Source: a virus
DNA length: 25,458 nucleotides
IMG/VR virus record: IMGVR_UViG_3300046010_010792
Location: 1 to 25,458 of that record
Direction: 5' to 3' (one strand)
Made by a program: the position numbers and the translations under genes. Shown here in pieces: positions 11,244 through 23,530 of this stretch. Within the stretch, counting starts at the first letter, position 1. Every line of letters begins with the position of its first letter. Under the pieces are notes generated by a model that ran no database searches, had not been told where the DNA came from, and saw nothing but the letters and a program-made list of their open reading frames with translations.

Positions 11244-11690
11244 TCACCAGCAGACGGGAGCCTGTGGCAGATACGCGGCAGGGGCACACGGGAACTGCGG
11301 CGCGTAGCACGGATTTCCGAACGTGCCAGTGAAGGGCGAATACGACGCGAACACTGGACGAGGGAAGCAGCCGCCACCGTAATACGGCAAGACAGCAGGA
11401 GCGTAGTAGCCACCACCGTAGCCACCCCAACCACCGCCCCATCCGCCACCCCATCCGCCACCACCCCACGGAAGCGTTGATGTGGTGGACGCTCCACCCA
11501 TACCAACACCCCAATTGAGATTACTGTTCTTGATGGTTTGACCATTGGGCAGCGTGGTCTTGCTGTATCCACCTGCCACGCCCACGTTGAATCCGCCACC
11601 ACTGTTCACGAACTGTGCGTCAGCAGAGGGCGAAAGAACAAGCGCGGACACCGCCGCGACAACCGATACCGAGAGAGTCTTAAAGTTCAT
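11244..11690 (-). CDS. Exported glycine-rich protein, function unknown
   Basis: The 148-residue product starts with a clear Sec signal peptide: MNFKTL, a hydrophobic core to residue 19, and a likely signal peptidase I site after SADA (residue 25). The mature part has a GGGFNVGVAGGYSKTT section, then a run of WGGG repeats (about residues 75-95) and a Cys/Pro/Tyr-rich end with three or four Cys. Such a protein would act in the periplasm or at the cell surface. It has a strong sigma70-like promoter and its own terminator, so it is a separate unit, likely expressed early by host polymerase. AAAGGAG lies 7 bases before the ATG. I do not recognise the family. Confidence 0.75.
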   Translation of the reverse strand: MNFKTLSVSVVAAVSALVLSPSADAQFVNSGGGFNVGVAGGYSKTTLPNGQTIKNSNLNWGVGMGGASTTSTLPWGGGGWGGGWGGGWGGYGGGYYAPAVLPYYGGGCFPRPVFASYSPFTGTFGNPCYAPQFPCAPAAYLPQAPVCW

Positions 11691-16396: not shown

Positions 16397-16605
16397 TTGC
16401 GGTCAAGCCGCGAGTGCCAGTGTGTTGTTGGCGTTTGTGGTTGAACAAGGGTTTTTAACGAGGCTCCTGAACACGCCCCGAATGCCTCCTGCAAGCCGTA
16501 CTGCACGCCATCCGATTCCAGATCGCCCCCGTGGTCTTGGGTAATGGAGGCGAGGAGATTTGAACTCCTGTAATGTACGTGTTTCTTGCCGCTATCAACA
16601 GCACT
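16397..16605 (-). ncRNA. ssrA: Circularly permuted two-piece tmRNA (ssrA)
   Basis: tmRNA rescues stalled ribosomes and adds a degradation tag. Here the acceptor piece comes first (about 16605-16545): T-arm AGGAG-TTCAAAT-CTCCT and acceptor 3' strand CGCCTCC plus A. After a 14-nt spacer (16531-16544) the coding piece begins at 16530 with GGGGGCGATCTGGAATCGG, very like the normal ssrA 5' end. GGGGGCG pairs with CGCCTCC over all 7 bp with G3-U70, the alanine identity pair. A pseudoknot-like part (GAGGC/GCCTC, GGG/CCC) precedes the tag frame at 16432-16403, ANNTLALAA plus TGA. GTACG/CGTAC and CTTGC/GCAAG link the two pieces as helix 2. CCA is not encoded. Confidence 0.88.
16403..16432 (-). other. 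tmRNA tag reading frame (ANNTLALAA, stop)
   Basis: The resume codon is GCC; the tag ends LAA, which is the ClpXP-type degron end (E. coli tag: ANDENYALAA). Confidence 0.85.
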
Positions 16606-19980: not shown

Positions 19981-20721
19981 TTAGAACTTGATACCAAAAC
20001 CCGCTGTAACGAGAACGTTTGATTCAGCGGTAACAACATCCTGATACACAGGAACTCCAAGTCCCAGGCTCAGGTCCACATTGGAGGCAACTGCCCACTT
20101 GACTGTGGGTCCGAGGAACAGTTGCTTCTCTCCAGTGTTCACATAGTAATACTGATTCAGTTCTGCGCCAAACTTGAATGCCTCCCACTTGTAGGTGAGA
20201 TCGGTGCCAAGCCCAACCAGATCCGAGTCTGTCTTCGCAGCGAGCGGCACGAAGAACGAGTTGCCGCCCACAAAGGTGTATTCAAGGGACTGCGAGAAAT
20301 CAAGACCCATGAGCGTCGTGTTGAACACGCCACCGAGGTAAGGGTTGACATTCTCGTTGCGGAAGAACTCCTCGCCCACAGGAATGTATACGCCAGCGTT
20401 GAGATCAATATCCCAAGTCTTGGCGGTGTATGCGTCAAACTGCGCACCCAACTGAATGTTGGAAAGCGATGTCTGACCGCTCTGTGCGTAGAGCGGAAGG
20501 TTCAGCGTTGCCGTGAGGGACGGCGTAAGATCCACCGAGAGCGTCTGATTCAGCCCGACGAGCGAATCGGCTCCACCCTTCATGCTGTTCACCTGAACAG
20601 TCTCCGTGAAATACCACTGCATTTCGTGTGCAGGGGCAGGAGCGGGTGCAGTCTGCGCAGCAGCACCACAAGCAAGCGCAGCAGCAAGTCCAACTCCAAG
20701 GTTCGTTGCAAAGTGTGTCAT
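19981..20721 (-). CDS. Predicted outer-membrane beta-barrel protein
   Basis: The 246-residue product has a signal peptide (hydrophobic residues 8-22, likely cut after the Ala-rich AQTAPAPAPA region), then about 10-12 amphipathic strands with alternating residues (for example TLSVDLTPSLTATLNLPLYA, WDIDLNAGVYIPVG, SLEYTFVGGNSFFVPL, VDLSLGLGVPV) and a final Phe (FGIKF), the usual end of outer-membrane barrels. A phage-borne barrel may change the host surface, for example to block further phages or alter uptake. AAGGAG is 10 bases before the ATG. A strong GC hairpin (20748-20763) lies in the leader. Confidence 0.75.
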   Translation of the reverse strand: MTHFATNLGVGLAAALACGAAAQTAPAPAPAHEMQWYFTETVQVNSMKGGADSLVGLNQTLSVDLTPSLTATLNLPLYAQSGQTSLSNIQLGAQFDAYTAKTWDIDLNAGVYIPVGEEFFRNENVNPYLGGVFNTTLMGLDFSQSLEYTFVGGNSFFVPLAAKTDSDLVGLGTDLTYKWEAFKFGAELNQYYYVNTGEKQLFLGPTVKWAVASNVDLSLGLGVPVYQDVVTAESNVLVTAGFGIKF

Positions 20722-21548: not shown

Positions 21549-22037
21549 TTAGAACTTCACGGGTATTTGGCGCGGCTTGTGTGCTTCGGGAACTTCGGAC
21601 ACCAAGATGATGTGGAGCATTCCGTTCTTCATCTCTGCGCTCTCCACCCGTGTCCACTCGCCCAACGTGAAGTGCTTCACGAATGCACGGCGAGCAATGT
21701 TGCGCACGGTGTAGTTGCGGGTGTCTTCTGTGTCCCCTGAACACGAAATGGTGAGGGTCTTGCCTGTCTGCGTGACTGCAATCTTTTGAGGATCGTAGCC
21801 TGCCACGGCAATCTCCACCCCAATGCGATTGTCGTCCATGTCGTATACGTTATACGGCGGATGCGAATCGCTCTTGGAGGAATTGAGGAGTGCAAGGTGC
21901 ACATCCTTGAACCACTCATCCCATCCTAGACCCCAACGGTCCAGTTCCTTCCACAGTGCGTTGTTGAACACAACGTGCTGCGTGAGGGGGGTGTGTGCGT
22001 GTTGCGAATTGGAAATGGTTAGGCTCTTGCCTGTCAT
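21549..22037 (-). CDS. Small heat-shock protein (Hsp20/alpha-crystallin family)
   Basis: The 162-residue product has the alpha-crystallin domain from about residue 60: PPYNVYDMDDNRIGVEIAVAGYDPQKIAVTQTGKTLTI, then RNIARRAFVKHFTLGEWTRVESAEMKNGMLHIIL and a C-terminal tail with the IPV anchor (RQIPVKF). The N-terminal arm includes WKELDRWGLGWDEWF. It is an ATP-independent holdase and is common in T4-like cyanophages, where it may protect virion proteins or the host photosystem; a structural chaperone role is inferred here. AAGGAG precedes the ATG. A perfect late promoter lies 77 bases upstream. Confidence 0.9.
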   Translation of the reverse strand: MTGKSLTISNSQHAHTPLTQHVVFNNALWKELDRWGLGWDEWFKDVHLALLNSSKSDSHPPYNVYDMDDNRIGVEIAVAGYDPQKIAVTQTGKTLTISCSGDTEDTRNYTVRNIARRAFVKHFTLGEWTRVESAEMKNGMLHIILVSEVPEAHKPRQIPVKF

Positions 22038-22391: not shown

Positions 22392-22493
22392 CTACTTCTC
22401 CTCACGCTTGCGACTGATCTCGTTCATCATCATTGCAAAGCAGATGATCAAGACGAAAAAAGGAAACACACTAATTAGGTCTTCGGGATACAT
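22392..22493 (-). CDS. Very small single-pass membrane protein (33 residues)
   Basis: An ATG at 22493, 6 bases after AAAGGA, opens a 33-residue frame: MYPEDLISVFPFFVLIICFAMMMNEISRKREEK. A short N-terminus is followed by one hydrophobic helix (residues 6-23) and a charged end, so the C-terminus is probably in the cytoplasm. It overlaps the upstream gene by 19 bp and abuts the downstream one, which supports translation. Small membrane proteins of this type can regulate lysis. Confidence 0.65.
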   Translation of the reverse strand: MYPEDLISVFPFFVLIICFAMMMNEISRKREEK

Positions 22494-22654
22494 GGGATGT
22501 CCTTTCGTAAAGCGGCTTGCAGTTGTTCCATCAGCCATCGGGCATCAATCGTTCCACCGTCCATGCACAGAAAAGTGATGGTATCAAAGACGGTTCGGAG
22601 CCGCTCGTTCTCTTCACGCAACGCGGCAACTTCAGTGATTAGGCATTCACCCAC
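22475..22654 (-). CDS. Small coiled-coil protein starting with GTG
   Basis: The GTG at 22654 has GGGGAGGA 7-8 bases upstream and overlaps the end of the PEP-CTERM-like gene by 8 bp. The 59-residue product starts with VGECLITEVAALREENERLRTVFDTITF, a short heptad helix, and ends with RWLMEQLQAALRKDIPCIPKT. No family is recognised. No ATG in this frame has a ribosome site. Confidence 0.6.
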   Translation of the reverse strand: MGECLITEVAALREENERLRTVFDTITFLCMDGGTIDARWLMEQLQAALRKDIPCIPKT

Positions 22655-23129
22655 GACGCTTCCTCCCCTGCCCCCACAGGGCAAGCATTGCAGCCAAGCC
22701 GCAACACAGCGCAACACCAGGTGCAGGCACGGTGGGATCGGTATCGGTTGTGGGCACAGATCCCTTTGCTGATACCAACGCACTGCTGTTGCCAAAGGGC
22801 AATCCACCCATAGACACTGCTTCCACACGATCAAAGGTTACAGGCACAACAAACTGCTGATCTGAAAAGGTGTAAGTGCCGACCAAATTTCCGTCAAGAT
22901 ACAGGCGGAAAATCCAAAAGCCCTGCACATCACCGATGAACAGCGTTTGTGCGTAATCCGCAGCAGGCATGGTGGAACCTTCTATTGCCTTCTCCCACCA
23001 ATTGGTTGGATACGAGAAGTCCTGCGTGAACGTGAGAGGCGCACCATACGATTGGGTAATGTATGTGGAACCCTGCCACCGCACACTGTGCGGAAGCAAT
23101 CCCTGCCCGTAAAGAACAGCATCACTCAC
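22647..23129 (-). CDS. Protein with a PEP-CTERM-like C-terminal sorting signal
   Basis: The 160-residue product (MSDAVLYGQGLLPHSVRW...) has a beta-rich body: YITQSYGAPLTFTQDFSYP, WIFRLYLDGNLVGTYTFSD, VPVTFDRVEAVSMGG. The end has VPAPG (about residue 134), a hydrophobic stretch and RKRRG, the three parts of PEP-CTERM-type signals (Pro motif, TM, basic tail) cleaved by exosortase. No N-terminal signal peptide is visible, which is odd for such a protein. It overlaps the upstream gene by ATGA. The beta body could bind a glycan or virion part; that is inference. Confidence 0.68.
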   Translation of the reverse strand: MSDAVLYGQGLLPHSVRWQGSTYITQSYGAPLTFTQDFSYPTNWWEKAIEGSTMPAADYAQTLFIGDVQGFWIFRLYLDGNLVGTYTFSDQQFVVPVTFDRVEAVSMGGLPFGNSSALVSAKGSVPTTDTDPTVPAPGVALCCGLAAMLALWGQGRKRRG

Positions 23130-23530
23130 GACATCACCTCGTCAGTCTCGCCAGGCTCCCACATCACAGACAGTGGTGCAACACAGTCGTGGCGCATGAT
23201 CTTCGCCAACACACTGAGATTGTAGTGGGAACGAATGGTGTCAATCATTCGGCTCACCATCATCTCATGTGCGCTCTCGTCGGGCTTGTTCGTCCACATG
23301 GACACTACCACGGTGCTTGGGTTGTCTGAATCAGTCACGCCTGTGTAGGTGATTCCGATCACCCAATTTCCAAACTGCTCCACTTCGTGTTCCGTCTGCT
23401 GCACGGTCACAGGAACAGGCTGAAGCCGTGTGTCAATGTCTGCCCATAGCGTAGTGACAGAGACAAAAACTCCGCTCCTCATCATGGAGACTAGTTGTGC
23501 GGGTGTTGCGGTGTTGATGTTGTGAGACAT
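23126..23530 (-). CDS. Unknown protein (134 residues)
   Basis: The product (MSHNINTATPAQLVSMMRSGVFVSVTTLWADIDTRLQPVPVTVQ...) has a mixed alpha/beta pattern with GNWVIGITYTGVTDSDNPSTVVVSMWTNKPDESAHEMMVSRMIDTIRSHY. No family is recognised. Its ATG overlaps the previous stop (TAATG), and its stop overlaps the next start (ATGA), so it is a middle gene of a coupled operon from 23910 to 22122. Confidence 0.68.
   Translation of the reverse strand: MSHNINTATPAQLVSMMRSGVFVSVTTLWADIDTRLQPVPVTVQQTEHEVEQFGNWVIGITYTGVTDSDNPSTVVVSMWTNKPDESAHEMMVSRMIDTIRSHYNLSVLAKIMRHDCVAPLSVMWEPGETDEVMS

Follow-up and report, generated by a model that had tools for sequence, protein, structure and literature searches.

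We propose that a small protein encoded by a T4-like aquatic phage, here termed P160, represents a family of phage accessory proteins in which a body of the extracytoplasmic type is joined to a selected C-terminal tail of the exosortase-substrate type that would anchor or sort the protein in the host envelope, a reading to which we assign a probability of about 0.55. In cellular bacteria, from which it has been described, PEP-CTERM is a C-terminal tag that directs proteins to the cell surface. The initial annotation considered such signals unusual in phage proteins, and indeed searches of open-licence papers, judged mostly by titles and abstracts, turned up no phage-encoded PEP-CTERM protein. 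If the proposal is correct, phages would possess a route to the host surface via exosortase sorting, the tail would serve as a marker of the host for many T4-like phages that are uncultured, and P160 would be a natural case for testing whether the tail can act without a Sec signal.

The P160 gene and its genomic setting

The window (the whole stretch of DNA analysed, 25,458 nucleotides) is a complete IMG/VR record and a linear fragment of a T4-like aquatic phage; its gp32 shares 57% identity with a cyanophage protein, and tail tube and head-closure genes are also present; psbA is absent, and this marker gives no sign of a cyanophage. The features relevant to P160, and to a neighbouring gene found in related contigs (designated by L numbers), are as follows.

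22647..23129, minus strand: P160 gene, a 160-aa protein with a low-basic body and a PEP-CTERM-like tail; 13 homologues
22731..23129, minus strand: P160 body, residues 1-133, without an N-terminal hydrophobic signal
22716..22730, minus strand: Pro motif VPAPG, residues 134-138; VP.P or IP.P at the same position in 14/14 members
22674..22715, minus strand: hydrophobic segment VALCCGLAAMLALW, residues 139-152, from hydropathy; a helix in low-confidence models
22653..22664, minus strand: basic cluster RKRR, residues 156-159, from the translated frame
22659..22667, minus strand: Shine-Dalgarno (SD)-like GGGAGGAAG of the downstream gene, encoding part of the P160 basic cluster
22475..22654, minus strand: downstream 59-aa gene, with a GTG start inside the P160 3' end
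23126..23530, minus strand: upstream 134-aa gene, its stop overlapping the P160 start; without an apparent signal peptide
L121 10443-10976 and L113 493-1026: P177 gene (177 aa), likewise encoded in the L119 and L120 records

The three-part tail described in the initial annotation is indeed present. At 22647-22738 (minus strand) the protein ends ...DPT-VPAPG-VALCCGLAAMLALW-GQG-RKRR-G-stop, with a hydrophobic stretch of 14 aa (best 14-aa Kyte-Doolittle mean, 2.34). The body is likely beta-rich, and the tail is helical in AlphaFold models of low confidence (pLDDT 38 and 46). A polyhedrin match in the PDB was set aside (E 0.43).

Several other genes of these phages deserve mention. A permuted tmRNA (RF04321, 52.4 bits) is found at 16403-16605 (minus strand) of the window, and the same family is found in L084, L092, and L121; a permuted tmRNA is thus encoded by several of these phages themselves. 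A 246-aa protein with a signal-peptide-like start and a C-terminal Phe, probably an outer-membrane beta-barrel, is encoded at 19981-20721 (minus strand), with relatives found in L006, L012, and the L091 record; a Gly-rich protein, also with a signal-peptide-like start, is encoded at 11244-11690 (minus strand), with a relative in L003 and a protein of a similar kind at L006 7633-8007. Judged by eye from the translations, a gene at 21549-22037 (minus strand) is small heat-shock-protein-like, and the related contigs encode adenylosuccinate synthetase-like (L121 6016-7008), IMP dehydrogenase/GMP reductase-like (L089 6975-8033), and LpxH-like (L084 8582-9355) proteins.

Relatives of P160

The P160 body matches 13 IMG/VR proteins encoded on related phage contigs, at about 36-49% identity to the window protein, and these fall into roughly five lineages, the window not counted. 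The first two homologues were reached through the records of gp32 relatives, and alignment-based scans extended the set to 13 contigs, while the window protein alone, used as query against viral and genome contigs, returned nothing. No P160 was found in an alignment scan of bacterial genome contigs, which thus offered no signal-peptide-bearing host version; a tblastn search of annotated phages and plasmids produced no convincing homologue of either P160 or P177. In all 13 relatives the tail layout is kept, as [VI]P[AST]P (variants VPAP, VPSP, VPTP, and IPSP), a hydrophobic helix, and C-terminal basic residues (KRNK, RKRKK, RRKR, RKNPRN), the basic end being weaker in some, such as those ending in KRNK and RKNPRN. 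The P160 genes sit among tRNA and small accessory genes, outside the structural block.

As to the N-terminus, the initial annotation saw no Sec signal and suggested that the start might be misplaced. The former observation holds for all 14 members, the N-terminus of the window protein being not hydrophobic, while the latter suggestion has to be abandoned. The GTG start at 23129 shares bases with the stop codon of the preceding gene, is preceded by an SD-like GAGGTGA, and has an in-frame stop five codons 5' of it (TGA CGA GGT GAT GTC GTG), so the missing signal does not result from a mis-called start. In L085, L087, L088, L089, and L121 the P160 start follows the end of a tRNA gene at a distance of 2-16 bases, and because the tRNA lies directly 5' of the start, P160 is without a Sec signal there as well. 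The homologues with N-terminal signals that were to be looked for do not occur among the P160 relatives; a Sec signal is found only in the neighbour, P177.

Matches to PEP-CTERM models

The window protein has no match to PEP-CTERM or to any other Pfam or NCBIfam model. Four of its relatives, however, pass the curated cut-off of TIGR02595 (16 bits), at 16.3 (L086), 17.6 (L087), 17.8 (L088), and 17.6 bits (L089), and 7 of the 8 members compared with PF07589 match it below its cut-off (best E 0.007). In a six-frame search of 16 phage records the only TIGR02595 matches were the tails of P160 and P177, the four above the cut-off all being P160. The hydrophobic part of the window tail is unmatched even by a profile built from the other tails of the family; as far as the sequences tell, this tail is one whose layout and position are kept and whose helix sequence has diverged. 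For the initial annotation, its proposal would fall if no model matched and if, in addition, homologues in related phages lacked the Pro motif or the basic end: the match is missing for the window protein, but both features persist in 13/13 relatives. The term 'sorting signal' is thus justified in part, the tail being selected and exosortase-like, but with the Glu of PEP replaced and the window protein unmatched.

Tail layout, selection, and exchange

A count of tail layouts covered 1771 ORFs from 103 phage contigs, a partly redundant set. A hydrophobic stretch with a basic end was found in 14 of these ORFs and the Pro motif in addition in 11 of the 14, 10 of these being P160 members or copies of the neighbour gene. 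Independence predicts about 0.1 three-part tails outside the family, and one was seen, in an unrelated ORF at L018 3755-4186 (plus strand) that ends in IPAPGAAILLGAVGLTSRRRRV and scores 14.4 bits against TIGR02595. This L018 tail, IPAPG...SRRRRV, is itself PEP-CTERM-like, and the N-terminus of the protein is unusually hydrophobic.

In most close P160 pairs dN of the tail, like that of the body, is far below dS, with few sites in the tail and saturation in distant pairs, a pattern which, at the level of sequence comparison, is that of purifying selection on the tails of close pairs. It may be asked whether the tail reflects chance instead, with a basic end that results from the next gene's overlapping SD and an incidental hydrophobic stretch. 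In the window, and apparently in the relatives too, that SD does overlap the basic codons. However, basic ends (net +2 or more) occur in 20.3% of ORFs with a close downstream start versus 19.0% of the others, so that SD overlap and basic ends show no general association, and all three parts of the tail recur in 14 members; we thus find this explanation hardly credible.

The neighbour gene adds a further argument. P177 overlaps the 3' end of P160 in four contigs (L119-L121 and L091/L113). Its N-terminus reads MHNSLLVSTVLTLAATNVSQA-A or MRNPLLATTVLALAATNASQA-A, a hydrophobic segment with an SQA^A-type site, and it ends in SVPAPSSFMLIGCAGIAALFGKRNK or SVPAPASVALLLCAPVFGFRRKR, a VPAP tail. The predicted layout of P177 is that of a canonical exosortase substrate, except for PAP in place of PEP. 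The P160 bodies of L083 and L085 align to the L121 P160 body (84-86%) up to about ...GTPE, while from the VPAP codons on, the sequence is that of the L121 P177 tail and the DNA downstream of it, at 95% identity. In the simplest reading, a deletion would have removed P177 in L083 and L085, leaving its tail on P160. The switch occurs at the Pro motif, which makes the tail a module that can be exchanged.

Composition of the body

The window P160 body contains 3.8% K+R, 10.5% T, 9.0% S, and no Cys, with Asn not raised (2.3%). In the P160 and P177 bodies together, K+R amounts to 2.3-3.9%, versus 11.9% over all ORFs, and Thr mostly to about 10-15%, versus 6.3%. Among 814 ORFs with lengths of 100-250 aa, K+R is as low in only 16; these are the P160 family, P177, the L018 ORF, four ORFs with signal-peptide-like starts, two of these in the window, and one fibre-like ORF. 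The same trend in composition is reported for PEP-CTERM proteins (Haft et al., 2006; PMC1569441).

Proposed function and alternatives

How might such a protein work? Most likely, the tail would insert into the inner membrane of the host, its basic end facing inward and its Pro motif lying at the outer face. There the tail would anchor the protein, and a host exosortase could recognize and cut it. P160 would cross the membrane by a route independent of a Sec signal, and its body would come to reside in the infected cell's envelope or on that cell's surface; any role there, such as surface change or keeping out other phages, is guesswork. The tail may accordingly hint at a host that carries an exosortase, as was suggested initially. 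A broader scenario, in which exosortase-bearing aquatic bacteria are hosts to T4-like phages that encode exosortase substrates with (P177) and without (P160) a Sec signal, swap the tails between these, and use the host's sorting system to alter or coat the surface of the infected cell, P160 providing a Sec-signal-independent entry, is put forward tentatively. Counting against the exosortase-substrate reading are the missing Sec signal, the missing Glu of PEP, the lack of a model match for the window protein, the failure of the family tail profile to match its hydrophobic part, and the lack of an exosortase in the 16 phage records searched, most of them fragments.

Some of the same facts would suit a mere C-terminal membrane anchor with a cytoplasmic body, the likeness to PEP-CTERM reflecting a common tail-anchor layout: no P160 member has a Sec signal, the Glu is absent, and the window tail matches no model. 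We regard this as unlikely, as a plain anchor would not need VP.P, which is kept in 14/14 members, nor would it explain the exchange with the tail of a Sec-exported protein, the exported type of body composition, or the curated TIGR02595 matches in relatives. It is improbable that P160 instead belongs to the virion or is injected, its hydrophobic tail docking from outside in the host envelope or aiding assembly, with no cellular sorting involved. While a cytoplasmically made, signal-less protein of exported-type composition would fit, and a tail-fibre-like ORF has this same composition, the P160 genes lie outside the structural block, four contigs have them adjoining a Sec-signal gene with the same tail, and the 'virion structural' match (phrog_34543) is weak and limited to one member. 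Finally, P160 could descend from a host PEP-CTERM gene minus its signal peptide, leaving the tail as a functionless relic, in accord with the missing signal peptide and the tandem of P160 and P177 with shared tails; this is very unlikely, given that the tail persists among members about 40% identical, is under purifying selection in close pairs, and was retained after the swap.

Comparison with known systems

The three-part layout is shared with MYXO-CTERM and GlyGly-CTERM tails. GlyGly-CTERM tails carry a GlyGly motif, which is absent from the P160 family. MYXO-CTERM models produce sub-threshold matches, but their signature is reported to include an invariant Cys before the helix (PMC11980579), and the P160 family lacks it. 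Weak similarity of the tail or of the whole length (E 0.03-0.3) exists to XDP1, an exosortase-dependent surface protein (NF041927), and to the FxDxF PEP-CTERM proteins (NF038126), with 11-15 bits far below the curated cut-offs of 50 or 125. From the PEP-CTERM (TIGR02595/PF07589) substrates of exosortase (EpsH/Xrt), P160 differs in being phage-encoded, in the window member being below any model threshold, in having VPAP, VPSP, or IPSP in place of the near-invariant Pro-Glu-Pro, with Ala, Ser, or Thr for Glu, and in lacking the Sec signal, which only the P177 neighbour of four relatives possesses, while about 97% of PEP-CTERM proteins have signal peptides (Haft et al., 2006; PMC1569441). What P160 shares with these substrates is a Pro motif, a hydrophobic helix of about 14 residues, a C-terminal basic cluster (RKRRG in the window), and a body with few basic residues, high Thr/Ser, and low Cys, along with the four relatives that pass the curated cut-off.
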